A stretch of 64,000 nt of DNA, from assembly GCA_031269945.1 (NCBI GenBank), contig JAISYK010000002.1:1-64000 (forward strand), in the 5' to 3' direction. Every line of letters begins with the position of its first letter. Position 1 is the first letter of the stretch. This document shows, in pieces, positions 42,322 through 58,523 of the stretch. The notes under the pieces are model-generated. The model ran no database searches and was not told the DNA's origin. It was given only the letters and a program-made list of their open reading frames with translations. Made by a program: the position numbers and the translations under genes. Source of the DNA: Candidatus Endomicrobiellum calonymphae (GTDB lineage: Bacteria; Elusimicrobiota; Endomicrobiia; Endomicrobiales; Endomicrobiaceae).

Positions 42322-44766
42322 ATGAAATATACAACTAAATGTGAAACTATTAAGATTTTGAATTTATCAAATGAACAATTGCTTGAGCTAAGTAAAAAAA
42401 ATCTTCTTTCGTTGTCTCTTGAAGAAATGAAAGTAGTTCGAAATTATTTTAAAAAACTTAAAAGAAATCCTACGGATATTGAAATGGAAACTATAGCTCA
42501 AACATGGAGTGAGCATTGTAAACATAAGACGCTTACAGGACTGATAGAGTATACTGAAGAAGAAAACGGGAAGAAAACAAGGAGAATATATAATAACCTC
42601 TTAAAAGAAACTATTTTTAAAGCCTCGATTGAATTAAATAAAACGTGGTGTTTATCTATTTTTAAAGATAATGCTGGAATTATTGAATTTGATTCTAAAA
42701 ATGGAGTTGCTTTTAAAGTAGAAACTCATAATCATCCCTCTGCACTTGAACCCTATGGTGGTTCTGCAACAGGAATAGGTGGTGTTATAAGAGATATTTT
42801 AGGGGTTGGCCTTGGGGCAAAGCCTTTGGCTAATACTGATGTATTTTGTTTAGGAGATCCAAATATGGAAGCTTCTAAAATTCCAAAAGGAGTACATCAT
42901 CCTAAAAGGATAATGAAAGGTGTTGTCTCGGGTGTTAGAGATTACGGAAATAAAATGGGAATACCTACCGTAAACGGTACGACTTATTTTGACGACGGTT
43001 ATATAGTAAATCCACTCGTTTACTGTGGAACTATGGGTATAATACCTAAAAATAAAATAAATAAAAAGGTTGAGTTCGGTGATTTGATTTTAGTCGTAGG
43101 AGGAAGGACAGGCAGAGATGGTATTCATGGTGCGACGTTTTCTTCTATACAACTTGATAAAAAGTCTGCCGTGAGTGCAGTTCAAATAGGTAACCCTATA
43201 ATTGAGAAAAAAGTATTGGATGCAATGCTTAAAGCAAGAGACTTAAATCTTTATAGGGCCGTTACTGATTGTGGAGCTGGTGGTTTGTCCAGTGCTGTAG
43301 GTGAACTTGGAAAAAAGATTGGAGCCGTCGTTTATTTAGATAAAGTCCCGTTAAAGTATGATGGACTTCGCCCGTGGGAAATATGGATTTCTGAGGCACA
43401 AGAGAGAATGGTTTTTACCGTTTCTCCTAAAAATATAGAGAAAATTATTGAGGTATTTGAAAAAGAAGATGTCGAGGCTGTATGCATAGGCAAATTTACA
43501 AATGATAAAAAACTTACTCTTACGTACGATGGCAATGTTGTAGCGAATATGGATATGAAATTTCTACACAATGGAATTCCTAAGCCTACTAAGCGTGCGT
43601 TTTATAAAGTAAGTGAAGAAAAAATACAAAAACCTATTGAGATGGATTCTTCTGAAATTTCTAGTTCTTTGGCTTCATTACTTGCTGATTTGAATATTTG
43701 CTCTAAAGAATGGATTATCAGACAATATGACCATGAAGTGCAAGGACAAACTGTTGTAAAACCATTGCAAGGAAATAATATTGAAATTTCAGGTCCTGGT
43801 GACGCAGCTGTTATTTTTCCTTATACTGTCATTAAAGGTACTAAGAAAGGTATTGTTTTATCTAATGGATTAAATCCTCAATATGGGAAAATAAACTCTT
43901 ATAAGATGGCCGCCTCTGCTATAGAAGAAGCCTTGAGAAATGCGGTTGCGGTAGGTGCTGATGTTAGGAGAATATCGATATTGGATAATTTTTGTTTTGG
44001 AAATCCTAATGATCCGGAAATTTTGGGAAGTTTGGTAAGAGCAACAAAAGCTTGTTATGATGTGTCAAAAGCTTTTGAAGTTCCTTTTATTTCAGGAAAA
44101 GATAGTTTGCACAATGAATATTTTATAAATGGAAAAAGGTATTCAATACCTTCAGTGCTTTTAATCTCTGCTATGGGCGTTATTGAAAATGTGGAAAATA
44201 CAGTTACGATGCCTTTTAAAAAAAATGGAAATAAAATATTTGTTTTGGGTATTACAAGAAATGAACTTGGCGGTTCCGTGTTTTCAAAAATAAGTAATAT
44301 GAAAGGTGGCGCGGTACCTAATGTTTTTCCTAGTGAGTCTAAGGATATAATGAAAAAGATTTATAGTGCAATAAGTGAAAATTTGATAGAAGCTTGTCAC
44401 GATTGTTCTGAAGGCGGGATTGCAGTCGCGGTAAGCGAAATGGCTTTTTCGGCAAATAAGGGTGTAAAAATAGATATAGATGCTGTAAATATTTATTCTC
44501 ATCTAGAATGCGAAAGTGAGGGAGGGATTAGGATTATGACGCCTGCTGAAATACTGTTTTCTGAATCAAATGGCAGATTTATCGTTGAAATAAAGCCTAA
44601 TAATGAAGAAAAATTTAAGAAAATTTTAGGTGGGGCGGTTTTCTCTGAAATTGGTTATGTAAGTGATGATAAAGAAGTGATTTTTGAAAGTAAAAGAAGT
44701 AATGTAAAAATACAGCAAAATTCTGAATTTCTTTTAAATTCTTGGCACAATACTATTAATTTGTAG
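42322..44766 (+). CDS. purL: Phosphoribosylformylglycinamidine synthase, large subunit
   Basis: ATP-dependent synthase domain of FGAM synthase. Seen: linker region TWSEHCKHKT, ETHNHPSALEPYGGSATGIG then GVIRDILGVG, CGTMGIIPK, GRTGRDGIHGATFSS, DCGAGGLSSAVGE, KPLQGNN, SGKDSLHNEY and a C-terminal DCSEGGIAVAVSEMAF. 814 residues, longer than the ~740 of small PurL. No glutaminase domain; purQ follows. 127 bases separate it from purS. Confidence 0.95.
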   Translation: MKYTTKCETIKILNLSNEQLLELSKKNLLSLSLEEMKVVRNYFKKLKRNPTDIEMETIAQTWSEHCKHKTLTGLIEYTEEENGKKTRRIYNNLLKETIFKASIELNKTWCLSIFKDNAGIIEFDSKNGVAFKVETHNHPSALEPYGGSATGIGGVIRDILGVGLGAKPLANTDVFCLGDPNMEASKIPKGVHHPKRIMKGVVSGVRDYGNKMGIPTVNGTTYFDDGYIVNPLVYCGTMGIIPKNKINKKVEFGDLILVVGGRTGRDGIHGATFSSIQLDKKSAVSAVQIGNPIIEKKVLDAMLKARDLNLYRAVTDCGAGGLSSAVGELGKKIGAVVYLDKVPLKYDGLRPWEIWISEAQERMVFTVSPKNIEKIIEVFEKEDVEAVCIGKFTNDKKLTLTYDGNVVANMDMKFLHNGIPKPTKRAFYKVSEEKIQKPIEMDSSEISSSLASLLADLNICSKEWIIRQYDHEVQGQTVVKPLQGNNIEISGPGDAAVIFPYTVIKGTKKGIVLSNGLNPQYGKINSYKMAASAIEEALRNAVAVGADVRRISILDNFCFGNPNDPEILGSLVRATKACYDVSKAFEVPFISGKDSLHNEYFINGKRYSIPSVLLISAMGVIENVENTVTMPFKKNGNKIFVLGITRNELGGSVFSKISNMKGGAVPNVFPSESKDIMKKIYSAISENLIEACHDCSEGGIAVAVSEMAFSANKGVKIDIDAVNIYSHLECESEGGIRIMTPAEILFSESNGRFIVEIKPNNEEKFKKILGGAVFSEIGYVSDDKEVIFESKRSNVKIQQNSEFLLNSWHNTINL

Positions 44767-44880
44767 TTTTCTAATCATTAAAAACATTATTTGATTATAT
44801 GTAAGATTTCAAGGAAGTTTGTTACGGTAGGTATAATTTTCGTAATCAGAGGTTTGTGTGTTATGTTGTGAGGAAAACAT

Positions 44881-45666
44881 ATGAAAAAAGTTAAAACGTT
44901 AATTTTAAGAACCGCAGGGACAAATTGTGATTATGAAACTCAAAGTGCTTTTGAATTGTGTGGGGCTGTTGCGGATCGTGTTCACATCAACACTCTTATT
45001 GAAAAAAAGAATAAAATTTTTGAGTACGATATTTTAGTTTTTCCTGGAGGATTTTCTTACGGTGACGATATAGCTTCAGGAAAAATATTATCAAATGAAA
45101 TTAAAAATAAACTTGGCGATGAAATTAAAAAGTATGCTTTAAGCGGTAGACCAATTGTAGGGATATGCAATGGTTTCCAAGTTTTAGTTAAAATCGGCCT
45201 GCTTCCTGACCCAAAATTTTTTAAACAAATCTTTACTCTTTCTTGTAATGATTCTGATAAATTTGAATGTCGTTGGGTTTATTTGAAAGTGGAAAAGAAA
45301 GTTAGAAGGGAATCTAACTGTATTTGGACAAAAAATTTGCCAGATGTTATAAGTTTGCCTGTAGCCCATGGAGAGGGGAAATTTGTTTCTGGCAACGAAA
45401 AATTTTTAGATAATTTAAATAAAAATAGTCAAATTGTTTTTAGATATTCTTTGAAAGATGGTAGTGAACCGGAATATCCTTTAGTTCCGAACGGATCCAT
45501 AGGACATGTAGCTGGAATATGTAACAAAAAAGGGAATATTTTTGGACTTATGCCTCATCCAGAAAGATATGTTTTTACATTGCAGCATCCAGCGAGAGAA
45601 GGTTTTAATGACAGATATGGGTGGGGAAAAGTGATTTTTCAAAATGCTGTTGATTTTGTAATCTAA
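44881..45666 (+). CDS. purQ: FGAM synthase, glutaminase subunit PurQ
   Basis: Class I glutamine amidotransferase that supplies ammonia to PurL. Seen: RTAGTNCDYET, FPGGFSYGDDIASGKI, the nucleophile GICNGFQ (about residues 98-104), PVAHGEGKF and the catalytic MPHPER. 261 residues. Ribosome-binding site GTGAGGAAA. Confidence 0.95.
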   Translation: MKKVKTLILRTAGTNCDYETQSAFELCGAVADRVHINTLIEKKNKIFEYDILVFPGGFSYGDDIASGKILSNEIKNKLGDEIKKYALSGRPIVGICNGFQVLVKIGLLPDPKFFKQIFTLSCNDSDKFECRWVYLKVEKKVRRESNCIWTKNLPDVISLPVAHGEGKFVSGNEKFLDNLNKNSQIVFRYSLKDGSEPEYPLVPNGSIGHVAGICNKKGNIFGLMPHPERYVFTLQHPAREGFNDRYGWGKVIFQNAVDFVI

Positions 45667-46988
45667 GTCGGCAAAGAATAGTTGTATAAGTGGGAAAATC
45701 TTTTTATTGGTATAATTTTCTACGAAGAGCAGTCTTCTACGTATTTAAAAATTTTGTTTCCTAGCAATTATAAAATAATTTTTTAATTAAGAGGAAATGA
45801 TTTAAAAAATTTCGAACTGTTGTTTTTAGAAATAGTGCTATTAAGTTTTTTTTGTGCCACATAGCGGTAAGGCTTGTGAAATTGTTTTTATATATGGTGG
45901 CAGTAATAGTTGAAAAAATTTGTGTAATTTTATGCCAAGTTTATGTTTTGACAATGTTTTAGGAAAAAGTAATATGGACAAAGAGTTATTCTTATGGTAT
46001 TTGTGAAGTTTATGACTAGGCTCTTTTGGTTGTTTAAGATTTTAAGTAAAAATGATACAATCAGGAGTTTGTTTGCGTCCTGTCTACGACTTACGACTAA
46101 TCAAATCATTATTCGTATTTTTGCTTTGAGCGATTATAAAGGATTTTCGCTTAGTATGCCAGAACATTTGAAGAAGAATATCATAGAAAGAAGTTTAGCT
46201 GAAAAGAAATTTGTCACTTGTTAATATTCGAATATGTGCTTGGCAGGTTTATAACAAAAATAAAAAAATTTAAAATCAGCAGACGATATTTTTTTGTTTA
46301 TTGCTGTCACAGGGGGGTAGTGGTTTTAGTAATATTTTGGCTTATTCAAATGAAAAATATTAGACTTTCTAAGCATTCTTTTCTAATTTATATATTTCGA
46401 AATTGCTAAGGCCTGCAAACGTTGGTAGGTTTGCCTTTTGTTCTCGTCTAGGTATGGTGCCAGCTCTTTGCGTGATTTTTCTGTTTTAAATCCTAAAATG
46501 TAACTATGGAAAGGAATATTTTGTCTAAGAAAGCAAAAGATAATATTATTTTCTTTGACCGCGTGGTGATAATGAGTAAAGAAGACGTTGTGGAGTATGT
46601 TTTTTTTGAAGGATACATTTATATTATATTCTCGAATAAAAGCGATAATAGAAAAGCAAAGTATTTCTGTGGATTATAGACAATAGTAAAAGTTTAATTA
46701 AGTACTTGCTATATTTATCTGTCATAACAGTTCCCGAATATTTGATTAAAAATACCGACAGAAAGAATATAGTGTGACAAAAATATAGGGAGTTTGTTTG
46801 GCAGAAAATAGTAATTGTTAATATCTGGTATAAATTAAAATTTAGTTTTTAAATATTTGAATAATTTCCAATTGTGTAATTGCGGTTAAAAGTAAATAAA
46901 TATTAACATGTTGTAAAATAAATGTAATATGTGAGCTTTTATTAATGATATCGTGGAAGAGTTTAATTTACTTTAGGTAGGGGACCAA
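45667..46988. other. 1.3-kb gene-free region between purQ and purD, probably decayed genes
   Basis: No intact gene. Broken frames include VPHSGKACEIVFIYGGSN (about 45860), SDYKGFSLSMPEHLKKN (about 46130) and DNIIFFDRVVIMSKEDVVEY (about 46540); none matches a family I recognise. A purF remnant would make sense here, but I found no PurF motif (CGVFGI, VDDSIVRGTT). A weak hairpin GCAAAC/GTTTGC lies at 46415-46434. Confidence 0.45.
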
Positions 46989-48266
46989 ATGAAAGTATTG
47001 GTTGTAGGATCTGGTGGAAGAGAACATGCAATATGTCAACAATTTTTAAAAAGTTCTAAAATTGGTGAGATATATTGTGCTTCAGGCAACGGTGGTATAT
47101 CTCAAATTGCGACAAATGTGAATATTCCAGTTAATAAAATAGATGATTTTAGTAAACTTGCCAATTTTGCTAGAAAAAATAAAATAGATTTCACATTTGT
47201 AGGGCCAGAAATTCCTTTATCTTTGGGAATAGTTGATTATTTTGAAGCTAATGGTTTAGAAATAATTGGACCATCAAGGAATGGAGCAAGACTAGAGTCG
47301 AGTAAGATATACTCAAAAGAATTTATGAGGAAATATGGTATACCCACCGCTAAACACAATTCTTTTTCGAATATTAGTGAAGCCTTAAAGTTTTTAGATA
47401 ATTATGAGAAAGGGCAAGAGGTTGTGATTAAAGCTGATGGACTTGCTGCTGGGAAAGGGGTTTATATTTGCAATAATATAGAGGAAGCTAAAAATGTTGT
47501 CAATCAAATTATGAATTATAAAATTTTTGGTTCCGCAGGGAGGAGTATAGTTATAGAAGAGTACATAGATGGTCCCGAATTGTCATATTTAATATTTACA
47601 GATGGTGTGTCTTATTCAATAATGCCTACTTCGCAAGATCATAAAAGGGTAAATGATAATGACCAAGGACTTAACACTGGTGGTATGGGCGCTTATGCTC
47701 CTGCATCCTTAGAAATGGCAAATGATTTAAATAAAAAAGCTGAAGTTATAATTCGAAAGATTATTAACGGCATAAAAACTGAGAAGATAAAATATAAGGG
47801 TGTTTTATATGCAGGGTTAATTATTAAAGATTATTGCCCTTATGTTTTGGAGTTTAACTGCCGTTTTGGAGATCCTGAAACTCAGGCGATTTTGCCTTTG
47901 CTTAACACAGATTTAACAGATATTTGTGTTGCGATTTTAAATAAAAATCTTGAAACTTTAAAGATTGACTGGAAAAAAGAATTTTCAGTATCAGTGGTGC
48001 TTTCCTCGGATGGATATCCAGGAGAATTTGAGACAGGATTTGAAATTAGCGGCTTGGAAAGTATTACTGATAAGGATACGGCAGTATTTCACTCTGGAAC
48101 AAAGTTTGAGTCTGGAAAATTTTTTACTTGTGGCGGAAGGGTTTTGAGTATTACTTCAAGAGCTGATAACGTGAAAGCTGCTATAGATAAGGTTTATTCA
48201 AATGTTAAAAGTGTATATTTTAAAAATATGCACTATCGGAAAGATATAGCCTGGAGGGCACTATAA
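46989..48266 (+). CDS. purD: Phosphoribosylamine-glycine ligase
   Basis: Second step of purine synthesis (PRA + Gly to GAR), ATP-grasp fold. Seen: VVGSGGREHAI, FVGPEIPLSLGI, KYGIPTAKH, VIKADGLAAGKGVYI, EEYIDGPELSYL, TSQDHKRVNDNDQG then LNTGGMGAYAP, and EFNCRFGDPETQAILP. 425 residues, standard. Ribosome-binding site AGGTAGGGG. Its stop shares a base with purE. Confidence 0.96.
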   Translation: MKVLVVGSGGREHAICQQFLKSSKIGEIYCASGNGGISQIATNVNIPVNKIDDFSKLANFARKNKIDFTFVGPEIPLSLGIVDYFEANGLEIIGPSRNGARLESSKIYSKEFMRKYGIPTAKHNSFSNISEALKFLDNYEKGQEVVIKADGLAAGKGVYICNNIEEAKNVVNQIMNYKIFGSAGRSIVIEEYIDGPELSYLIFTDGVSYSIMPTSQDHKRVNDNDQGLNTGGMGAYAPASLEMANDLNKKAEVIIRKIINGIKTEKIKYKGVLYAGLIIKDYCPYVLEFNCRFGDPETQAILPLLNTDLTDICVAILNKNLETLKIDWKKEFSVSVVLSSDGYPGEFETGFEISGLESITDKDTAVFHSGTKFESGKFFTCGGRVLSITSRADNVKAAIDKVYSNVKSVYFKNMHYRKDIAWRAL

Positions 48267-48808
48267 TGATGAGCGATGTTGCTGATGTGGATGTAGCTAT
48301 TATTGTGGGTTCTAAATCGGATTTATCCTTGGTAAAGGGATCTATTGGAATTTTAGAGAAATTTGGATTATCTTACATTTTGAATATTGCTTCAGCTCAC
48401 AGGACTACTCAACATTTGAAACAATGTGTTAGAAGTGCAGAAAGTTTAAATGTAAAAGTTTTTATAGCAGTTGCTGGAATGGCTGCTGCACTTCCAGGTG
48501 TTATAGCTTCTGAAACTATTTCCCCTGTAATAGGAGTTCCGGTAGATAGTAAAAGCTTTTCGGGTTTAGATGCTTTATTTTCGATAGTTCAAATGCCTAA
48601 AGGTGTGCCTGTTGCAACAGTTGCAATAGGGGAAACAGGTGTTATAAATGCTGCAATCTTAGCTGTTCAAATAATAGCTGTTACAAATAGAAGTTTAAAA
48701 GAGAAGCTTAAAACGTACAAAAATAAAATGTCAGAAGATGCTATCAAAGATGATTTTGAACTCCAAAAAAATGGAGTAGAAAAGTATCTTAGAGAATTGA
48801 GAAAATAA
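48266..48808 (+). CDS. purE: PurE, AIR carboxylation enzyme (mutase or carboxylase)
   Basis: Makes CAIR. Seen: IIVGSKSDLSLVKG, ASAHRTTQHLKQ (catalytic His), AVAGMAAALPGVIASET, PVIGVPVDSKSFSGLDA and IVQMPKGVPVATVAIG. 180 residues. The SKSDLS and GMAAALPG variants differ from E. coli-type class I (SDW, GAAHLPG) and there is no purK beside it, so it may be a CO2-using class II carboxylase; this is not settled from the sequence alone. Translationally coupled to purD (TAATG-type overlap). Confidence 0.92.
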   Translation: MMSDVADVDVAIIVGSKSDLSLVKGSIGILEKFGLSYILNIASAHRTTQHLKQCVRSAESLNVKVFIAVAGMAAALPGVIASETISPVIGVPVDSKSFSGLDALFSIVQMPKGVPVATVAIGETGVINAAILAVQIIAVTNRSLKEKLKTYKNKMSEDAIKDDFELQKNGVEKYLRELRK

Positions 48809-48989
48809 TCTTTATAAGTGTTTTTTTTATGTTGTAAAGTATATTTTATGGAAAAATGATTCGAATGCTTTATGAGTTATTCGCATAACAATAGATTTTA
48901 TATAAAAATAAATTTAAGAAAAATTAAAATAGTAGAAAGAAGGTGAAAATTGTATTGCATATAAAAGTATATGTGAAGGATAATAGTAA

Positions 48990-49922
48990 ATGTTTCTAAA
49001 ATTTAAAGATTTACTTGGCCTTGAACATTTAGACAAGAAAGACTTGCAAACAATTTTGGATTCCGTAAAACCATTTAAAGATCTTTTTAAAAAATCTGAT
49101 AAAGCTTCAACACTTCGTGGCAAAACGGTAGTAACACTTTTTTATGAACCTTCTACCCGTACAAGAACTTCGTTTGAGATTGCTGCCAAAAGACTTTCTG
49201 CTGATGTGGTAAATATTACGGTGAGTAATTCAAGTATTGTCAAGGGAGAAAGCCTTATAGATACTGGGAAAACTCTTGAAGCTATGGGTGCTGATTACAT
49301 AATTATAAGGCACACGTTGGCCGGAACGCCTGACATACTTGCTAAAAATTTAAATGTGTCTATAATAAATGCCGGTGATGGGTTTCATGAACACCCTACC
49401 CAAGGATTGCTTGATTTATATACTATATATGAAAGAAAGAAAAGAATTGAGGGATTGAAAGTTTTACTTGTTGGTGATGTTTTACACTCTCGGGTGGCAA
49501 AATCGAACATGTGGGCATTAACGAAAATGGGTGCAGAGGTTTTGGTCTCAGGCCCATCGACTTTAGTTCCTGCAGGTATTGAAAATTTAGGTGTGAAAGT
49601 ATTTTATAATTTAGATGAAGCTGTTAAAATAGCCGATGTTTTGAATATTTTACGAGTGCAGTTTGAACGTCAACAAGAAAATTTATTTCCGTCAATTCGT
49701 GAATATATTAGTCTTTATCAGTTAACAAAAGAGAGATTGACTCTGGCGAAATCTGACGTTTTAATTATGCATCCCGGTCCAGTGAATAGAGGTATTGAAA
49801 TAACTTCTGAAGTTGCTGATGCCCCTAATACTGCAATTAACGAGCAGATTATCAATGGGATAGCGGTAAGGATGACGGTCTTATGTCTTTTGGAGCTTAT
49901 AAAGAGAGAAAATGCGTCTTAA
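48990..49922 (+). CDS. pyrB: Aspartate carbamoyltransferase, catalytic subunit
   Basis: Committed step of pyrimidine synthesis. Seen: carbamoyl-phosphate motif YEPSTRTRTSFE, SSIVKGESLIDT, IIRHTLAGTPD, GDGFHEHPTQGLLDLYTI, LLVGDVLHSRVAKSN and MHPGPVNRGIEI. 310 residues, standard catalytic chain. No pyrI regulatory subunit is seen. Overlaps pyrC by 11 bases. Confidence 0.96.
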   Translation: MFLKFKDLLGLEHLDKKDLQTILDSVKPFKDLFKKSDKASTLRGKTVVTLFYEPSTRTRTSFEIAAKRLSADVVNITVSNSSIVKGESLIDTGKTLEAMGADYIIIRHTLAGTPDILAKNLNVSIINAGDGFHEHPTQGLLDLYTIYERKKRIEGLKVLLVGDVLHSRVAKSNMWALTKMGAEVLVSGPSTLVPAGIENLGVKVFYNLDEAVKIADVLNILRVQFERQQENLFPSIREYISLYQLTKERLTLAKSDVLIMHPGPVNRGIEITSEVADAPNTAINEQIINGIAVRMTVLCLLELIKRENAS

Positions 49923-51198
49923 AATTAAAAATATCAAAATAGTTGATCCTTCTTTACAAAACGAAAATTTAATTAGCGACATTTTTATTGAGGATGAGAA
50001 AATTGTGCCAAAATTTTTAAGCGACGCTGATAGAATTATTAACGGAGAAGGGAAGATTGCTGTTCCTGGACTTATTGATATCCATGCTCACTTAAGAGAA
50101 CCGGGGCATGAAGTGAAGGAAACTATTTACACGGGAACGCGTTCTGCTGCAAAAGGTGGGGTAACGACTATTTTTTGCATGCCAAATACAGAACCTGTTA
50201 TTGATAGTGCTTCAACGGTTGAATTTATATTACATAAGGTACGCAAAGAAGGATGCGTAAATGTTTTTCCCATAGGTTGTGCGACTAAAGGATCACGGGG
50301 TTTTGAACTTTCTGAAATAGGACTTCTTAAAGAGGCAGGGGTCGTTGCAATAAGTGATGATGGCTTCCCCATATCAAGCTCGAGAGTTATGCGGCATGTT
50401 TTAGAATATTCTAAAATGTTTAAACTTCCGGTTATCTCTCATGGAGAGGATAAAGAGTTAAGTAGAAGTGGCGTCATGAATGAAGGGAAAAATTCTACAT
50501 TTTTGGGTCTTAGAGGAATTCCAAAACAGGCTGAAGAAGTTATGGTAAGTCGTGATATAATGCTTGCAGAACTCACTGGTGCTTATCTGCATATTGCTCA
50601 TGTTTCTACTGCGGGTTCTGTTGATTTGATAAGACAAGCAAAAAGAAAGAATATAAGAGTTACTGCCGAAACTTGTCCACATTATTTTGCTTTAACCGAT
50701 AATGATGTGAAAGTTTATGACGCGAATACTAAAATAAATCCTCCTCTAAGAGAAAAGGAAGATATCGATGCAATAAAACGTGGTCTTGCGGATGGAACGA
50801 TAGATTGTATAGCGACGGATCATGCTCCGCATACTCAAGAAGAAAAGAACAAGGAATTCGATCTAGCTCCTTTTGGAATTATAGGATTTGAGACGTTATT
50901 GAGTCTTGTTTTAAGTGAGCTTGTCTATACTGGCGTTTTAAGCTTTTATGAGGCTATATCAAAGATGACTTCCAATCCCGCCAGGATTTTTAATCTTGAA
51001 GGCAGAGGCACTCTTAAAGAGGGAAGTATTGCTGACATTACAATAATCGATACAGAGTATTTCTATAAGTTTGAGAAAAAAGAAATAGTTTCTAAAAGCA
51101 AAAATTCACCTTTTATAGGAAGGAAGTTTAAAGGTGGAGCAGTGATGACAATTGTTGGAGGGAATATAGTTTGGGATCTGAATAACAAATTTAACTAG
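49912..51198 (+). CDS. pyrC: Dihydroorotase, class I
   Basis: Zn amidohydrolase that cyclises carbamoyl-aspartate. Seen: metal-binding DIHAHLREPGHE (about residues 59-70), a downstream His in LPVISHGED, LHIAHVSTAGS, TAETCPHYFALTD and the catalytic Asp in ATDHAPHT. 428 residues, typical of the stand-alone bacterial type. Start ATG 49912 lies inside the end of pyrB, so translation is coupled. Confidence 0.95.
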   Translation: MRLKIKNIKIVDPSLQNENLISDIFIEDEKIVPKFLSDADRIINGEGKIAVPGLIDIHAHLREPGHEVKETIYTGTRSAAKGGVTTIFCMPNTEPVIDSASTVEFILHKVRKEGCVNVFPIGCATKGSRGFELSEIGLLKEAGVVAISDDGFPISSSRVMRHVLEYSKMFKLPVISHGEDKELSRSGVMNEGKNSTFLGLRGIPKQAEEVMVSRDIMLAELTGAYLHIAHVSTAGSVDLIRQAKRKNIRVTAETCPHYFALTDNDVKVYDANTKINPPLREKEDIDAIKRGLADGTIDCIATDHAPHTQEEKNKEFDLAPFGIIGFETLLSLVLSELVYTGVLSFYEAISKMTSNPARIFNLEGRGTLKEGSIADITIIDTEYFYKFEKKEIVSKSKNSPFIGRKFKGGAVMTIVGGNIVWDLNNKFN

Positions 51199-51222
51199 AA
51201 GAAGATAGAAATTAAATTTGTT

Positions 51223-52032
51223 ATGTCATTTCTGCTACGTATGTATAAAAGGGTTGATAAAAATTATAGGATAGTTTACAACAAGAAAGTGCAGTCTCAC
51301 TATTTTGAATTAAAAATCAAAGTAGGTGATGTTTATAAGTCTTGTTCCCCGGGGCAGTTTTTTATGATTGGTGTCCCAGGTGTTTTTTTGCGTCGTCCTT
51401 TTGGAATATGTGATGCGGATGATGGAGAGGGAGGATGCGTGAGTTTTTTATATAAGGTTGTCGGTAAGGGTACAAAAATTTTGTCGAATATTAAATCTGG
51501 AATGCTTCAACTTTTAGGTCCACTCGGAAAAGGTTATGATTTAGAACCGTTGGTTAATATTATTGTATGTGATAATGATGCGTGCGACAATTCTAATAAT
51601 GTTATCGTTGCGGGTGGTACAGGTATTGCTTCAATTCATTTTCTTGCCTCACGACTTAAAAACAAAAGTACTTTGTATTATGGGGCAAAATCAGAATCTG
51701 ACTTGTTGTATTTAGATAATTTTCGAAAATTAGGATGGAAAGTTGTTTTGTCTACTGAAGATGGGTCAAAGGGGTATAAAGGTTATATCACTGATATATT
51801 GTCAAAACAGCTAAAGAAAAGAGATACTCTTTTTGCTTGTGGACCTACTCCAATGCTCAAAGAAATTTTAGAGATTGCTAGGAAAAAAAATGTGCTAGGT
51901 TTTGCTTCTCTTGAAGAAAAAATGGCATGTGGGTTGGGAAATTGCCAAGGCTGTGCTGTAAAAATAAATAGACAAAATAAAATGATTTGTAAAGATGGGC
52001 CTGTCTTTAAAGTTGAGGATATTGAGTTATAA
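51223..52032 (+). CDS. pyrK: Dihydroorotate dehydrogenase electron transfer subunit
   Basis: FAD/[2Fe-2S] subunit that lets type 1B PyrD use NAD. Seen: FAD motif RRPFGICDAD, NAD-binding VAGGTGIASIHFLASRL, FACGPTPML, and the cluster cysteines in ACGLGNCQGCAVKI and MICKDGPVF. 269 residues; an acidic insertion with CDNDACDN (about residues 115-125) is unusual. An alternative start is ATG 51241. Confidence 0.93.
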   Translation: MSFLLRMYKRVDKNYRIVYNKKVQSHYFELKIKVGDVYKSCSPGQFFMIGVPGVFLRRPFGICDADDGEGGCVSFLYKVVGKGTKILSNIKSGMLQLLGPLGKGYDLEPLVNIIVCDNDACDNSNNVIVAGGTGIASIHFLASRLKNKSTLYYGAKSESDLLYLDNFRKLGWKVVLSTEDGSKGYKGYITDILSKQLKKRDTLFACGPTPMLKEILEIARKKNVLGFASLEEKMACGLGNCQGCAVKINRQNKMICKDGPVFKVEDIEL

Positions 52033-52490
52033 GTGTGACTATAAGAAAACAAATAATAGAGAAGATATTTTAAGAATTAAGGTTAGTGGTAATTTTGTGT
52101 TTAATAATGAAAGAGTGAAATTAATCGTTAAAGAATGTTGCTCAACCATCAGCCCGTATGGGGGATTATAACTAAAATGAACAATCCGTCCAAATTGGCG
52201 AAAAGTGTTATTGAAGATGATTATCTTACATTATTTACTCGAAAAATATTAGGCATAGATTTGTCAAGGGTTTAATAATATATTTCATGATTTTGAAAAT
52301 ATAGAAAATTGTGAAATTAGTGAATGCAAGTATCCTGAAAATATGCTGGAGGCTCATGTCAGAATTCAGCAATAAAAATAATAAACAAAAAAAATAAAAT
52401 TAAAGAATAATATGTAACGTATAGTATGTACACGTAGATTTTACTGTTTGTTGTGTTCGTTTTCTGTATAAAATGAAATGAGTAGAATAG
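52033..52490. other. Gene-free spacer between pyrK and pyrD, probable remnant
   Basis: 458 bases with broken frames such as REDILRIKVSGNFVFNNERV (about 52070), PSKLAKSVIEDDYLTLFTR (about 52190) and ENCEISECKYPENMLEAHVR (about 52310). The text looks coding-derived but I cannot name the parent. It interrupts an otherwise tight pyr gene order. Confidence 0.4.
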
Positions 52491-53408
52491 ATGAAAACTG
52501 ATCTAAATGTAAATTTTGCCGGAATTAAGCTGAAAAATCCTGTACTTACAGCATCAGGAACTTTTGGTTATGGTTACGAACTTGCAGATTTAATTTCCTT
52601 GAATGAGCTAGGTGCTATTGTGACTAAGACAATCACTTTAGAGTCATGCGATGGGAATTTACAGCCCAGAATTGCGGAAGTTGAGTCTGGAATATTAAAT
52701 ACGATAGGCTTGCAAAACATTGGAGTTAGAGCTTTTATTGAAGGGCCTCTTGAGAAATTGAGTAAAATAGGAGTGCCCGTAATTGTAAGTGTCGCTGGGT
52801 CTAGCCCAAGCGAATACATTGAAACAGCAGAAATATTGAGTATGAAGAATGGTATCTCAGCTATAGAACTTAATTTATCTTGTCCTAATTTGAAAAAGAG
52901 AATAATTTGTCACGATTTGCGTTTGGTCAGTGAAATAGTAAGAGGAGTAAAAAATGTGTCGAAATTGCCAATTATTGCAAAATTTTCCCCACTAGTGACT
53001 GATATTGTTGAGATTGTGGTGGTGGCGCAAGATTCAGGAGTCGATGGAGTAACACTAGCAAATACTTATCCAGCAATGGCCATAGATATTGAAACGTTTA
53101 AGCCCAAACTTTCCACATTTAAGGGAGGTGTTTCAGGTGCTTGTATAAGGCCGATGTCAGTGCGCTGCGTGTATGATGCTTACCAGAGTATAAAAGTGCC
53201 GATTATTGGTTGCGGTGGAATAATGACGGGAGAAGATGCTATTGAATTTATTCTCGCTGGGGCTACAGCTGTCAGCGTTGGAAGTTCAAGTTTGGTCTCT
53301 CCCAAAAATTTAATAAAAATTATTTGTGAAATTAAAGATATATTGGAAAGAAAAAATATAAAGTCAGTAAAAGACATAATTGGCATTGTAAATAAAAGTT
53401 TAGGATAA
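52491..53408 (+). CDS. pyrD: Dihydroorotate dehydrogenase, type 1B catalytic subunit
   Basis: FMN enzyme oxidising dihydroorotate to orotate. Seen: VNFAGIKLKNPVLTASGTFG, NTIGLQNIG, ELNLSCPN with the class 1 catalytic Cys, AKFSP, GCGGIMTGEDAIEFI and GATAVSVGSSSL. 305 residues. Cys as catalytic base and the neighbouring pyrK mark it as the NAD-linked 1B form, suited to an anaerobe. Confidence 0.95.
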   Translation: MKTDLNVNFAGIKLKNPVLTASGTFGYGYELADLISLNELGAIVTKTITLESCDGNLQPRIAEVESGILNTIGLQNIGVRAFIEGPLEKLSKIGVPVIVSVAGSSPSEYIETAEILSMKNGISAIELNLSCPNLKKRIICHDLRLVSEIVRGVKNVSKLPIIAKFSPLVTDIVEIVVVAQDSGVDGVTLANTYPAMAIDIETFKPKLSTFKGGVSGACIRPMSVRCVYDAYQSIKVPIIGCGGIMTGEDAIEFILAGATAVSVGSSSLVSPKNLIKIICEIKDILERKNIKSVKDIIGIVNKSLG

Positions 53409-53463
53409 ATTTTAATTTAGAACTTATTTTGATAGTTAACAAATAAACGTTATAAAGGGAGAA

Positions 53464-54102
53464 ATGAAAAAAATAATACTTGCTCTTGATGTTTATGATT
53501 TTAATAAAGCTGAAAAACTTGTAAAAGAAACTGTTACCTATGTTGATGTTTATAAAGTGGGGCCAATGCTGTTTTTACGATGTGGCGGAAGAATAATGAG
53601 AACTATAAAAGACAACGGGAAAGAGATATTTTTAGATTTAAAGTTTCACGACATACCTGCTATTGTTAAGCTTTCTGTTGAATCTGCTAAAGAGCTAGGA
53701 GTTTTTAGTTTAACTGTCCATTCTGTCGGTGGGAAAGATATGCTTGTGGCCGCTACGTCTGTAAAAAATAGGCCTAAAATTTGGGCAGTGACAGTCTTAA
53801 CGAGTCAGGTATCGAGTGAAGAAGAAGTTATTAAAATGGCAAAACTTGCAAGAGACTGTGGAGTGGATGGTGTAATATCATCGCCTCTTGAAATAGCACT
53901 TATAAGAAAAGAGTGTGGCGAAGAATTTAATGTGGTGACTCCTGGAATTAGACTAAAAAAGGTTGATGATGACCAAAAGAGAGTGGCAACACCAGAGATT
54001 GCAATTAAAGAAGGTGCGGATTTTATAATTATTGGTAGACCTATATTGAACACTGTAAATCCTGTTGAAACTTTAAAAAATATTTATGACAAAATAGGAT
54101 AA
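53464..54102 (+). CDS. pyrF: Orotidine 5'-phosphate decarboxylase
   Basis: Makes UMP from OMP. Seen: ALDVYDFNKAEKLV, VYKVGPMLF, the catalytic DLKFHDIPAIV (Asp-Lys-x-x-Asp; about residues 59-69), TVHSVGG, TPGIRL and FIIIGRPIL. 212 residues, the short bacterial group. Ribosome-binding site AAAGGGAG. Followed 27 bases later by the transporter-PyrE fusion. Confidence 0.95.
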   Translation: MKKIILALDVYDFNKAEKLVKETVTYVDVYKVGPMLFLRCGGRIMRTIKDNGKEIFLDLKFHDIPAIVKLSVESAKELGVFSLTVHSVGGKDMLVAATSVKNRPKIWAVTVLTSQVSSEEEVIKMAKLARDCGVDGVISSPLEIALIRKECGEEFNVVTPGIRLKKVDDDQKRVATPEIAIKEGADFIIIGRPILNTVNPVETLKNIYDKIG

Positions 54103-54129
54103 TAAGAAGGTGATAAAGGTGGAATGAAA

Positions 54130-55422
54130 ATGAATATCATGAAAAATAAGAATAACATTTTTTTGTTTGATGGATTAAAATTTGGACTTATGCTGCAAGT
54201 CGGTGGCATTGGACCTGTTTCCATGTTAGTTTTTACTTTGTCATTGTCCATACCAGTTACTGAAATGCTCATAGGTATTTTAGGTTTATCAATTGTCGAT
54301 TTAACATATGTTAGCTTAGCTGTTTTTTCAATATCTGCTCTTGTGAAAAAAATACAACGATATCAACGAGTTTTCGATATTGTCATTGGTATTGTATTAA
54401 TGGCATTTGGAGTATTTTTTATAACAACTGGAATATTGTTTTTGAAAATGTTTTTAATGACAGGACAAATAGGATACGATTTTATTAACCCTGAGAGTAT
54501 TAAAGGGAAAACTTTATTTTTTGGCTTAATGGGATTGGATATGGCAAATCCAATTACTATTTTGTTTATTATGGGAATATTTTCACTTGAAGTAAGTAAG
54601 CGCGATATGAAATTTAAAGAAACGAGTATTTTTGCAGCTGGTTTTATACTGGCAACGCCGGTGTTTATGTCTTTTATAATTTTAGTTGGCCATTTTATAG
54701 GCACATTTTTACCAATTTGGGCTGTAAAGACACTTAACATTATTGTTGGTCTTGTTTTAGGATACTGGGGGGTAAAAAATATATTTTTTAAAAAAGCAAA
54801 TTCAGATGAAAAAAGGATAAAAGAAATAGAGGCAGAAGAGCTTATTGGGCTTCAAGAGCTATTTAAAAAAAACAAAGCTCTTTTGATCGGGCATTTTAAG
54901 CTTGCTAGCGGGCTTCATTCAGATACGTATTTTCAATCTGCATTGATTTTGCAAAACCCTAAGGATACCGCAAAATTGGCAAAAGAGCTTGCTAACAAAA
55001 TCAAAGAAAACAATATAAAAGTTAACGCCGTTGTCTCTCCTGCTGTTGGCGGTATTGTTATAGGATACGAAGTTGCAAGGGCTTTAGGAGTTCGCTCTAT
55101 ATTTACTGAGAGAGTTGATGGCAAAGTTGGGTTGAGGAGAAGTTTTTCAGTAGATAGAGACGAGAAAGTTTTAGTGGTTGAGGATGTTATAACGACAGGA
55201 CTTTCTAGTATAGAAGTTATAAACTCTGTCAAATCTATGGGTTCCGTAGTAGTAGCTGTTGCTTCTCTTGTTGATAGAAGTGCTGGAAAAGTTGATTTTG
55301 GAGTTCCAAAGTTTTCTATTTTAACTCTTGAAGTTAAAAACTATGATAAAGATAGTTGCCCTATGTGTAAGTCAGGAAGCGTTGCCATAAAGCCTGGCAG
55401 AGTATATAGTATAAGTATATAG
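54130..55422 (+). CDS. pyrE: LysE-family transporter fused to orotate phosphoribosyltransferase (PyrE)
   Basis: One uninterrupted frame. Residues about 1-220: LysE/RhtB-type translocator with about six TM helices, the family's GL.L..GGIGPVS opening, a second-half FFGLMGLDMANPITILF echo, and a membrane-anchored end near GYWGVKN. Residues about 238-430: complete OPRT with GHFKLASGLHSDTYFQ, SPAVGGIVIGYEVARALG, the PRPP loop VLVVEDVITTG and C-terminal CPMCKSGSVAIKPG. A charged linker (SDEKRIKEIEAEELIG) joins them; no internal Met or ribosome-binding site suggests a separate PyrE. Start ATG 54130, seven bases after AGGTGG; ATG 54124 is possible. OPRT would be tethered to the inner membrane. Confidence 0.9.
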   Translation: MNIMKNKNNIFLFDGLKFGLMLQVGGIGPVSMLVFTLSLSIPVTEMLIGILGLSIVDLTYVSLAVFSISALVKKIQRYQRVFDIVIGIVLMAFGVFFITTGILFLKMFLMTGQIGYDFINPESIKGKTLFFGLMGLDMANPITILFIMGIFSLEVSKRDMKFKETSIFAAGFILATPVFMSFIILVGHFIGTFLPIWAVKTLNIIVGLVLGYWGVKNIFFKKANSDEKRIKEIEAEELIGLQELFKKNKALLIGHFKLASGLHSDTYFQSALILQNPKDTAKLAKELANKIKENNIKVNAVVSPAVGGIVIGYEVARALGVRSIFTERVDGKVGLRRSFSVDRDEKVLVVEDVITTGLSSIEVINSVKSMGSVVVAVASLVDRSAGKVDFGVPKFSILTLEVKNYDKDSCPMCKSGSVAIKPGRVYSISI

Positions 55423-55550
55423 ACCGGTAATACGTTGTATATTTTTTGCATTTAGAGGTTTTTTAAATTTTAACTCAAAATTGGTGTTTATTGCTGTTAT
55501 TGTTTGAGGTATAAATCACAATTTATGTACGTCTTTTATAATAGGAGATA

Positions 55551-56525
55551 ATGAGTATGTCTATCACGTACAAGGAAGCTGGTGTGAATATTGAAGCTGG
55601 GAATGAACTTGTGAAACGGCTTAAAAAAAAATTTCCAAAAATTGGCGGTTTTGGGGGACTGTTCCCTATTGTAGGAACAAAATATAATCTTGTAAGCTCA
55701 ACCGATGGGGTAGGGACAAAATTAAAACTTGCTTTTTTAATGAAAAAATATAATACTGTCGGGATAGATTTGGTTGCAATGAATGTCAATGACATAGTAT
55801 GTGTAGGAGCGAAACCCCTTTTTTTTTTAGATTATTTTGCTTGCGGAAAACTAGATGTAGGGCAAGCAGAACAAGTTGTTGAGGGCATAGCTAGAGGATG
55901 TGAATTGTCAGGTTCGCAACTTATTGGCGGTGAGACTGCCGAAATGCCAGGATTTTACAAAGATGGAGAATACGATTTAGCTGGTTTTTCGGTAGGCATA
56001 GTTGAAAAAGGAAAGGAAATTAATGGAAGTAAAATAAAGACGGGAAACGTTGTGATAGGATTGCCGTCAAGTGGTCTTCATTCGAATGGGTATTCTCTTG
56101 TAAGAAAAATTTTTTCGGATAACGAATTGGAAAAATACTCAAAACAGCTACTTATGCCTACAAGAATTTATGTTAAGGAAATTCTTTTAGCTATTGCGAA
56201 ATTCAATTCAGTTGAACAAAATATAGTTGGTATCACTCATATCACCGGCGGGAGTTTTTATGATAAAATAGGCAGAATTTTGCCTAAAAAAAAAGATATC
56301 AGGGTTGTTATCGAAAAAAAAACATGGAAAATTCCTGATATTTTTAAAATTGTCCAAATCAAAGGAAATGTTTCAGAAACGGATATTTATAGAACTTTAA
56401 ATATGGGAATAGGTATGGTTTTGGTAGTGCGTTCTGAAGCGGCTTTAAAAATTGAAAAGTTTTTTAGGGACGCTAAGGTAATAGGTCGTGTCAAAAAAGG
56501 CGAAAGAGGTGTTGAGCTTGTATGA
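55551..56525 (+). CDS. purM: Phosphoribosylformylglycinamidine cyclo-ligase (AIR synthase)
   Basis: Makes AIR. Seen: SITYKEAGVNIEAGNELV, SSTDGVGTKLKLAF, VGIDLVAMNVNDIVCVGAKP, LIGGETAEMPG, GLPSSGLHSNGYSLVRKI and GITHITGGSF. 324 residues, standard. Ribosome-binding site ATAGGAGA. Its 3' end overlaps purN. Confidence 0.96.
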   Translation: MSMSITYKEAGVNIEAGNELVKRLKKKFPKIGGFGGLFPIVGTKYNLVSSTDGVGTKLKLAFLMKKYNTVGIDLVAMNVNDIVCVGAKPLFFLDYFACGKLDVGQAEQVVEGIARGCELSGSQLIGGETAEMPGFYKDGEYDLAGFSVGIVEKGKEINGSKIKTGNVVIGLPSSGLHSNGYSLVRKIFSDNELEKYSKQLLMPTRIYVKEILLAIAKFNSVEQNIVGITHITGGSFYDKIGRILPKKKDIRVVIEKKTWKIPDIFKIVQIKGNVSETDIYRTLNMGIGMVLVVRSEAALKIEKFFRDAKVIGRVKKGERGVELV

Positions 56526-57129
56526 TGTGAAATGTCTTGGGGTTTTAGTATCTGGTAGCGGGGCAAATTTACAATCTATAATAGATTCTACTAATGATGG
56601 GATTTTAAAAGGATTTGCAAAAGTTGTTTTAGTTGTTTCAAATAATCCTAATGCTTACGCACTTGAAAGAGCAAAAAAAGGAAATATAAAATCTGTTTGT
56701 GTAGAAAGAAGAAATTTTGAGGATGAAGAATCTTTTAACGATGTCATATTTTCGGAGCTTCAAAATATGAAAGTAGATGTTGTCTGTCTTGCTGGTTATT
56801 TAAGACTTATCGGGCAAAAAATAGTAGAGAATTATCGTAATAAGATTTTGAATATACATCCAGCTCTTTTGCCTAAGTTTGGCGGCAAGGGTATGTATGG
56901 TTATCATATTCACGAAGCTGTTGTAAAATCAAGAGATATGATATCTGGGGCAACAGTGCATCTTGTGGATGAAAATTATGATACTGGAAAGATAGTAATA
57001 CAAAAAAAAATTAGAATTTTTTCAAACTATACACCACAGGATGTAGCAGAAAAAGTTTCAAATATAGAACACAAGATATATCCTGAAGCCATAAAAATTT
57101 TAGTAGACGGCTTAAGTAAAAATCTTTAA
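56518..57129 (+). CDS. purN: Phosphoribosylglycinamide formyltransferase
   Basis: 10-formyl-THF-dependent GAR formylation. Seen: GVLVSGSGANLQSIID, VVSNNPNAYALERA, AGYLRLIG, catalytic NIHPALLPKFGGKGMYG then HIHEAV, SGATVHLVDENYDTG. 203 residues from the TTG at 56518, chosen because GAGG lies eight bases upstream and the family begins just before GVLVSG; GTG 56509 or 56488 are alternatives. No ATG is available. Overlaps the end of purM, so it is coupled. Confidence 0.92.
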   Translation: MYDVKCLGVLVSGSGANLQSIIDSTNDGILKGFAKVVLVVSNNPNAYALERAKKGNIKSVCVERRNFEDEESFNDVIFSELQNMKVDVVCLAGYLRLIGQKIVENYRNKILNIHPALLPKFGGKGMYGYHIHEAVVKSRDMISGATVHLVDENYDTGKIVIQKKIRIFSNYTPQDVAEKVSNIEHKIYPEAIKILVDGLSKNL

Positions 57130-57230
57130 AGTTGTTTAATGCGTTGCACTGCTGTAGCGTGTAAATATTTGAGCATGATAATTGAAGTAGGAAGTTTAAA
57201 GCTAAAGATGGGGAAAGAGGTAGAAAAAAA

Positions 57231-58523
57231 ATGATACCGCGTTATAGTAAGCCTGAGATGTCTGAAATTTGGGCGGATGAGAATAGGTTCAAAAAAATGC
57301 TTGAAGTTGAGATTTTTGCTGCTGAGGCTATGTCAAAACTGGGTGCAATTCCTCAAGAAGCTGTGGAGACAATAAAACGTAAAGCTAGGGTTGATGTTAA
57401 GAGAATTAATGAAATTGAATTTACTGTTAAACACGATGTAATATCTTTTTTGACTGCTATTTCTGAGACTGTAGGACCTGATGCTAGATTTTTGCATCTT
57501 GGTATGACGTCTTCTGATGTTTTAGATACTGCTACTGGAGCACAACTTAAACAAGCTATAAATTTACTTATTGATGAAACAAAAAAGCTAGTTGTTATAG
57601 TTTACGACTTGGCCAATAAGTATAAAATGACTCCTATAATTGGAAGAACGCATGGTGTTCATGCGGAACCTACTACGTTTGGATTAAAGGCGGCTTCTTG
57701 GTATTGTGAAGTTTTGAGATCTGTAGATAAACTTAGTTTTGCTCTTGAAACTGTGAGTTATGGTAAAATTTCTGGCGTTGTTGGTACTATGGCACATTTG
57801 GATCCAAAAATTGAAGAATATGTATGTCGAAAAATGGGTTTGAAGGCAGAACCTGTATCAACGCAAATTATTCCGCGTGATAGACATTCAATTTATTTTA
57901 CTATGCTTGCTCATGTAGGTGCTGCTCTTGAGAGAATTGCTACGGAAATAAGACATTTGCAAAGAACCGAAGTTTCAGAAGTCGAAGAGCCTTTTACGAA
58001 AGGACAAAAAGGTTCATCGGCAATGCCTCATAAGAGAAATCCGATAATCTCTGAAAATATATGTGGATTGTCAAGAGTTCTTAGAGGATATGCCTTAACT
58101 GCGATGGAGAATATTGCATTATGGCACGAGCGTGACATAAGTCACTCTTCTACGGAAAGAATCATGCTTCCAGACGCTTCAATAATTTTGCATTATATGC
58201 TTGTTAGAATGCAAACTTTATTATCAGGACTTAACGTTTATCCTGAAAATATGCAAATAAATTTGGATAAAACAAAAGACGTTATTTCCTCAGGTACATT
58301 GTTACTTTCTCTTGTTGATAAGGGAATTTTGAGAGAGAATGCTTATGGTATAGTTCAAGCTGTGGCTTTTAATGCGAGAGATAATAAAATAACTATGGAA
58401 GAAGCGTGTCTAAAAAATCAAGATATAAAGAAATATTTAACAGTAGAAGATATAAGAAGAGATTGTGATGCTAGCTCGCAATTTAAAAATGTTGATTATA
58501 TTTTTAAGCGAGTTTTTAAATAG
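57231..58523 (+). CDS. purB: Adenylosuccinate lyase
   Basis: Acts twice: SAICAR to AICAR, and adenylosuccinate to AMP. Seen: IPRYSKPEMSEIWADENRF, HDVISFLTAIS, LHLGMTSSDVLDTA, GRTHGVHAEPTTFGLK, and the fumarase-superfamily signature GSSAMPHKRNP (about residues 262-272). 430 residues, standard. Ribosome-binding site AGAGGTAG. Last pur gene in the window. Confidence 0.97.
   Translation: MIPRYSKPEMSEIWADENRFKKMLEVEIFAAEAMSKLGAIPQEAVETIKRKARVDVKRINEIEFTVKHDVISFLTAISETVGPDARFLHLGMTSSDVLDTATGAQLKQAINLLIDETKKLVVIVYDLANKYKMTPIIGRTHGVHAEPTTFGLKAASWYCEVLRSVDKLSFALETVSYGKISGVVGTMAHLDPKIEEYVCRKMGLKAEPVSTQIIPRDRHSIYFTMLAHVGAALERIATEIRHLQRTEVSEVEEPFTKGQKGSSAMPHKRNPIISENICGLSRVLRGYALTAMENIALWHERDISHSSTERIMLPDASIILHYMLVRMQTLLSGLNVYPENMQINLDKTKDVISSGTLLLSLVDKGILRENAYGIVQAVAFNARDNKITMEEACLKNQDIKKYLTVEDIRRDCDASSQFKNVDYIFKRVFK

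Follow-up and report, generated by a model that had tools for sequence, protein, structure and literature searches.

Described systems closest to the fusion protein

Export is the function described for the LysE superfamily, with amino acids as the solutes exported by its LysE and RhtB families (PMC4608589). Exporters of these two families (PF01810; TC 2.A.75/2.A.76) possess six transmembrane (TM) helices within about 220 residues, an N-in/C-in topology and invariant G, P, D and N residues, and all of these properties recur in the protein described here, which, however, bears a cytoplasmic enzyme at its C-terminus. This enzyme resembles orotate phosphoribosyltransferase (OPRT) of the pyrE_Therm type (TIGR01367; PDB 4paw, HP1257) in its full-length domain, its PRPP motif, its conserved loop and its location within the pyr operon, but it possesses no start of its own, is attached to a six-TM protein and ends in GRVYSISI instead of GSRK. 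PyrE joined to another protein is represented by the bifunctional UMP synthase and by other PyrE-PyrF fusions (e.g., PRK05500), yet in the present case the partner of PyrE is a transporter; identity with the bifunctional UMP synthase was rejected, as PyrE and PyrF do not form one chain and pyrF is a separate open reading frame (53464-54102). Finally, a transporter physically linked to a modifying transferase characterizes the group-translocation systems, for which the PTS and the old proposals of vectorial phosphoribosylation serve as comparators. The fusion shares this linkage, but differs in that its transporter half belongs to an exporter family, that the enzyme's substrate is apparently made internally and that nothing points to coupling or uptake.

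The genome that contains the window belongs to Endomicrobiellum. This genus comprises flagellate endosymbionts of the family Endomicrobiaceae, whose host group includes parabasalids (PMC11257099), and the endosymbiont setting assumed in the original prediction thus corresponds to that of termite-flagellate endosymbionts. The main text of this Endomicrobia genome paper mentions neither LysE nor orotate nor pyrimidine, and the literature search yielded no paper on a LysE-PyrE protein or on an orotate-exporting LysE. Likewise, no LysE-PyrE fusion was found in plasmid records, the nearest LysE (34%) being that of Cetobacterium. Both parts of the protein belong to known families; their combination and its stepwise origin appear to be new as judged from the literature searched and from architectures compared within the phylum and the plasmid records.

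The fusion gene and its two domains

Within the window, i.e., the whole analysed stretch of 64,000 nucleotides, an uninterrupted open frame of 432 codons (54124-55422, plus strand) was read from the sequence. Of its two in-frame ATG codons (54124 and 54130) the second, at which the original prediction also began, is favoured as the start, because the alignment of relatives begins there and a Shine-Dalgarno-like AGGTGG (54117-54122, plus strand) lies 7 nt upstream. The fusion gene thus spans 54130-55422 (plus strand) and encodes 430 residues with a predicted mass of 47.4 kDa, in which six LysE/RhtB-type membrane helices are followed by a linker of about 20 residues and a complete OPRT. It had been claimed from the letters alone that a single frame joins a LysE-type part to PyrE directly after pyrF, and this reading holds: both domains score above their profile cut-offs and pyrF adjoins upstream. 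In the 808-kb genome of the window (G000; other G-numbers denote compared genomes), no pyrE match and no LysE-family match was obtained outside this gene. As judged from its sequence, the gene genuinely encodes one protein whose two domains derive from adjacent genes.

The transporter domain (54130-54789, plus strand) was identified by the Pfam profile LysE (PF01810; 39.4 bits versus a cut-off of 25.6, covering about residues 46-218), which each of the 21 sequences in the LysE alignment also matches at E-values of 0.01 or below. Each half of the domain matches the C-terminal half of PF01810, which bears on a 3+3 arrangement of the TM helices. The estimate of about six helices made at the outset was corroborated by this profile match, by hydropathy, by the charges of the loops and by an AlphaFold2 model, and invariant transporter residues (e.g., P31, D59, N142-P143 and P179) are common to fused and separate LysE copies; among solved structures, none with sequence similarity to the LysE half was found. 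By family, the transporter half most likely still exports a small, amino-acid-like solute. Between TM3 and TM4, about 15 extra residues (54430-54500) are common to the window, G001, G015 and G136, and are missing in G006 and in the separate LysE copies.

The linker KKANSDEKRIKEIEAEELIG (54790-54849, plus strand) is charged, contains homopolymer runs of A and T and is predicted, with low to medium confidence, to be largely helical. It is followed by the OPRT domain (54850-55419, plus strand), which matches the equivalog profile pyrE_Therm (NCBIfam TIGR01367) over residues 243-425 with 216.4 bits (cut-off 150.25) and Pribosyltran (PF00156) with 39.5 bits (cut-off 26.3). The PRPP-binding motif VLVVEDVITTG (residues 349-359; 55168-55200, plus strand) and the loop ERVDGKVGLRR (55108-55140, plus strand), which we take to be the counterpart of the OPRT catalytic loop, were located by motif position and conserved columns. 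Their residues are conserved across 34 aligned PyrE sequences, in agreement with the intact PRPP and substrate motifs that had been noted earlier. A Foldseek search with the model returned OPRT structures as its first matches, the best PDB entry being 4paw (44% identity, E 1e-18, TM-score 0.86 when normalised by target). The OPRT half is most likely functional. The last codons of the gene (55393-55422) encode the ending KPGRVYSISI, replacing the KPGSR-type ending (usually GSRK) of other aligned PyrE sequences, while a GSRE ending is kept in G001, G015, G136 and G006.

The AlphaFold2 model, based on an alignment of 47 rows, shows the six-helix membrane part, the helical linker and the PyrE domain with a mean pLDDT of 83.7 (PyrE mostly 90-98, LysE mostly 70-95); given a pTM of 0.52, the placement of the two domains relative to each other is not fixed by the model. 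The positive charges of the loops alternate according to the positive-inside rule, yielding an N-in/C-in topology and consequently placing PyrE on the cytoplasmic side. The suggested tethering of OPRT to the inner membrane is supported by this predicted topology, and the fusion would accordingly be a membrane protein with PyrE at the cytoplasmic face, for which both activities, i.e., transport and OPRT, are expected.

Distribution and origin of the fusion

The state of lysE and pyrE was followed in 42 genomes of the genus, and lysE was sought in 199 genomes of the phylum. An intact-looking lysE was found in 27 genomes of the genus, being fused to pyrE in seven (G000, G001, G015, G136, G006, G016 and G069) and separate from it in the other 20, hence the two genes are not always separate in relatives. 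In G019 lysE is interrupted by stops, short apparent remnants are present in G032, G033, G010 and G013, and several further genomes of the genus possess pyrE without lysE. Among the 199 genomes, the lysE of the fusion type is confined to the genus, bar one weak match in G187, and the loci examined outside the genus but within its family and order show pyrF followed by pyrE without lysE in between. This distribution places the arrival of lysE in the operon at or close to the root of the endosymbiont genus, with several losses thereafter. A donor of the gene was not found within the phylum.

Of the 20 genomes with separate genes, 14 show an overlap of 14-52 nt between lysE and pyrE, and in the others the distance between the two genes does not exceed 11 nt. 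Since the separate genes mostly overlap, their joining has a simple, non-adaptive origin, which is probably the one that applies here. In G002, lysE and pyrE already share one frame and are split by a single TAA, with pyrE starting at a TTG. In a tree built from both domains, three changes of the fused state were needed in all bootstraps and the grouping of the fused genomes in one clade was rejected (p-AU 7e-91), so that in-frame joining appears to have occurred at least three times: in the clade of G000, G001, G015, G136 and G006, in G016 beside the separate pairs of G011 and G027, and in G069 beside the separate pair of G143, whereby the second and third origins are each represented by one genome.

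Within the clade of the window, the fused frame is also open in the separately assembled G001 (86% identity), G015 (85%) and G006 (71%), and G136 carries the fusion too (84% over the LysE part). Among G000, G001 and G015, synonymous divergence amounts to 0.44-0.74 with dN far lower, and the resulting dN/dS values (0.11-0.125 for the LysE part, 0.15-0.16 for the PyrE part) indicate that both halves have been under purifying selection while fused.

Based on these findings, the locus is best explained, with a probability of roughly 0.6, by a functional membrane-tethered OPRT and an independently working exporter whose overlapping genes became fused in frame. Initially, a LysE/RhtB exporter gene would have been inserted between pyrF and pyrE in the ancestor of Endomicrobiellum, and the end of lysE would have come to overlap the start of pyrE. 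Next, a small insertion or deletion in the lineage of the window would have brought both genes into one frame, and the later loss of the former pyrE start would have left OPRT to be made solely as the C-terminal part of a membrane protein. The transporter half would then span the inner membrane with its two termini facing the cytoplasm, where the OPRT half would convert internal orotate into OMP, the two halves being active side by side and presumably uncoupled. Chance could account for three origins, given that overlapping pairs abound in the genus, whereas the persistence of the fusion in five species is compatible with a neutral as well as with an advantageous view; together, this persistence and the at least three joinings may leave room for an advantage of tethering.

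A housekeeping enzyme that is otherwise soluble thus seems to have been turned into a membrane protein, which is uncommon. The stages are visible in living relatives as separate overlapping genes, as joins in which an internal start persists and as a join without one. The case also suggests that, in reduced genomes, overlapping genes can give rise by chance to transporter-enzyme fusions, which then become locked in.

The pyrimidine gene cluster

The fusion gene is preceded on the same strand by pyrB (aspartate carbamoyltransferase, 48990-49922), pyrC (dihydroorotase, 49912-51198), pyrK (Fe-S/flavin subunit of class 1B DHODH, 51223-52032), pyrD (dihydroorotate dehydrogenase, 52491-53408) and, directly upstream, pyrF (OMP decarboxylase, 53464-54102), which catalyses the pathway step following that of PyrE. 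Of the de novo pathway, carB, pyrB, pyrC, pyrK, pyrD and pyrF were sought and identified in G000. Since the whole de novo pathway is apparently encoded, orotate would be made internally, its uptake would be needless and the substrate of PyrE would be at hand. In a wider region (42322-58523), purL, purQ, purD, purE, purM, purN and purB are grouped with the pyrimidine genes on one strand, and gaps therein (e.g., 45666-46989) may contain decayed genes. Four open reading frames that are missing in the window lie between pyrE and purM in G026 (L054 5043-8377).

Alternative explanations

A tentative but serious proposal is that the transporter exports amino acids for the host, that it came to lie in the pyr operon by an accident of insertion and that the fusion is a neutral by-product which, once PyrE had lost its own start, shields the transporter from loss. 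This is a sub-case of the preferred reading, hence its probability is contained in that given above and does not add to it. It agrees with the amino acid export described for the LysE and RhtB families (PMC4608589), and a nonsense mutation within the transporter part would now abolish PyrE too. Two biosynthetic markers, lysA (above the cut-off in 36 of 42 genomes) and argH (31 of 42), are both present in G000, but they occur in genomes with and without lysE and hence do not predict the transporter; their co-occurrence is consequently uninformative as to the substrate, which the sequence itself does not reveal.

It is unlikely that free PyrE is still made, either through proteolysis of the linker or from a non-standard start, in which case the fusion would hardly matter. 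The charged linker and its low model confidence speak for such a product, as do the in-frame ATGs retained in the linkers of the fused genomes G006 and G016 and the GGAGGT and ATG that persist at the former pyrE start of G069; owing to these ATGs, both products may be formed in the latter three genomes. In the window, G001, G015 and G136, however, the linker holds no in-frame ATG, GTG or TTG. The fusion frame of the window is devoid of these codons between about codon 183 and codon 254, the latter being a TTG within the core of PyrE, and a further in-frame TTG, inside the first PyrE helix of G001, G015 and G136, is missing in it. An internal start yielding free PyrE had been named earlier as an objection to the fusion; with no standard start near the former pyrE start, such a product is improbable in the genome of the window, even if release by proteolysis or initiation at ATT or ATA may occur. 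The linker of G015 contains a GGAGGT that is not followed by a standard start at the usual distance.

Rather improbable is the provisioning of the flagellate host, according to which a pyrimidine (orotate, uracil or a nucleoside) is exported and the operon place and the fusion keep the transporter in step with the pathway. This idea draws on the entry of lysE into the pyr operon solely in the endosymbiont genus and on the parabasalids among the hosts, as parabasalids such as Trichomonas and Tritrichomonas are without de novo pyrimidine synthesis (PMC3591441). Yet the coupling of orotate export to an orotate-consuming enzyme would be self-defeating, and several endosymbionts without lysE still have pyrE. 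Moreover, we know of no pyrimidine substrate of LysE/RhtB proteins, nor was one found in the literature searched. Quite improbable is also the broader version, in which a tethered OPRT is combined with an exporter that moves a pyrimidine or a precursor between the bacterium and a pyrimidine-dependent protist host, and in which the two steps are coupled or channelled through the fusion. If the transporter did move pyrimidines, this would constitute a testable route of nucleotide provisioning in the termite-flagellate symbiosis.

The original prediction went further and suggested that transport might be coupled to phosphoribosylation, i.e., a group translocation in which orotate or a base, once imported by the transporter, is captured as a nucleotide by the tethered PyrE. 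The physical joining of a transporter to a phosphoribosyltransferase and the positive-inside topology, which would have PyrE sit where an importer releases its substrate, are compatible with this idea. However, the LysE superfamily exports (PMC4608589), orotate is made inside the cell by the encoded de novo pathway and relatives that have dropped the transporter retain pyrE, all of which argues against uptake coupled to phosphoribosylation; as frame fusion of overlapping genes suffices to explain the joining, group translocation is considered very improbable and the suggested coupling was not borne out.

That the fusion merely reflects a sequencing or assembly error, which the A and T homopolymer runs in the linker might suggest, is already refuted for the clade of the window by sequence comparison, as the four other genomes of this clade share its open frame, with the synonymous divergence and far lower dN given above for the three closest genomes; chance is likewise excluded as a source of the open frame. 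The single-genome fusions of G016 and G069 may be due to sequencing error, the join in G069 lying beside a run of G.

Further observations at pyrE loci

Frames of 958-965 residues containing pyrE in G056 and G059 were considered as further fusions. In G056 (L051 3864-3866), pyrE follows in frame an AsmA-like open reading frame of 758 residues with one TAG between them, and this candidate was rejected, as the TAG parts the two; G059 exhibits the same layout. The 1.6-Mb single-contig Endomicrobiaceae genome G075 has no close pyrE of this type, just a 30% match at 23.7 bits, and may use another OPRT. In G032, a second pyrE-like gene (C22, 9512-10072; 41% identical) is located beside the normal pyrE.
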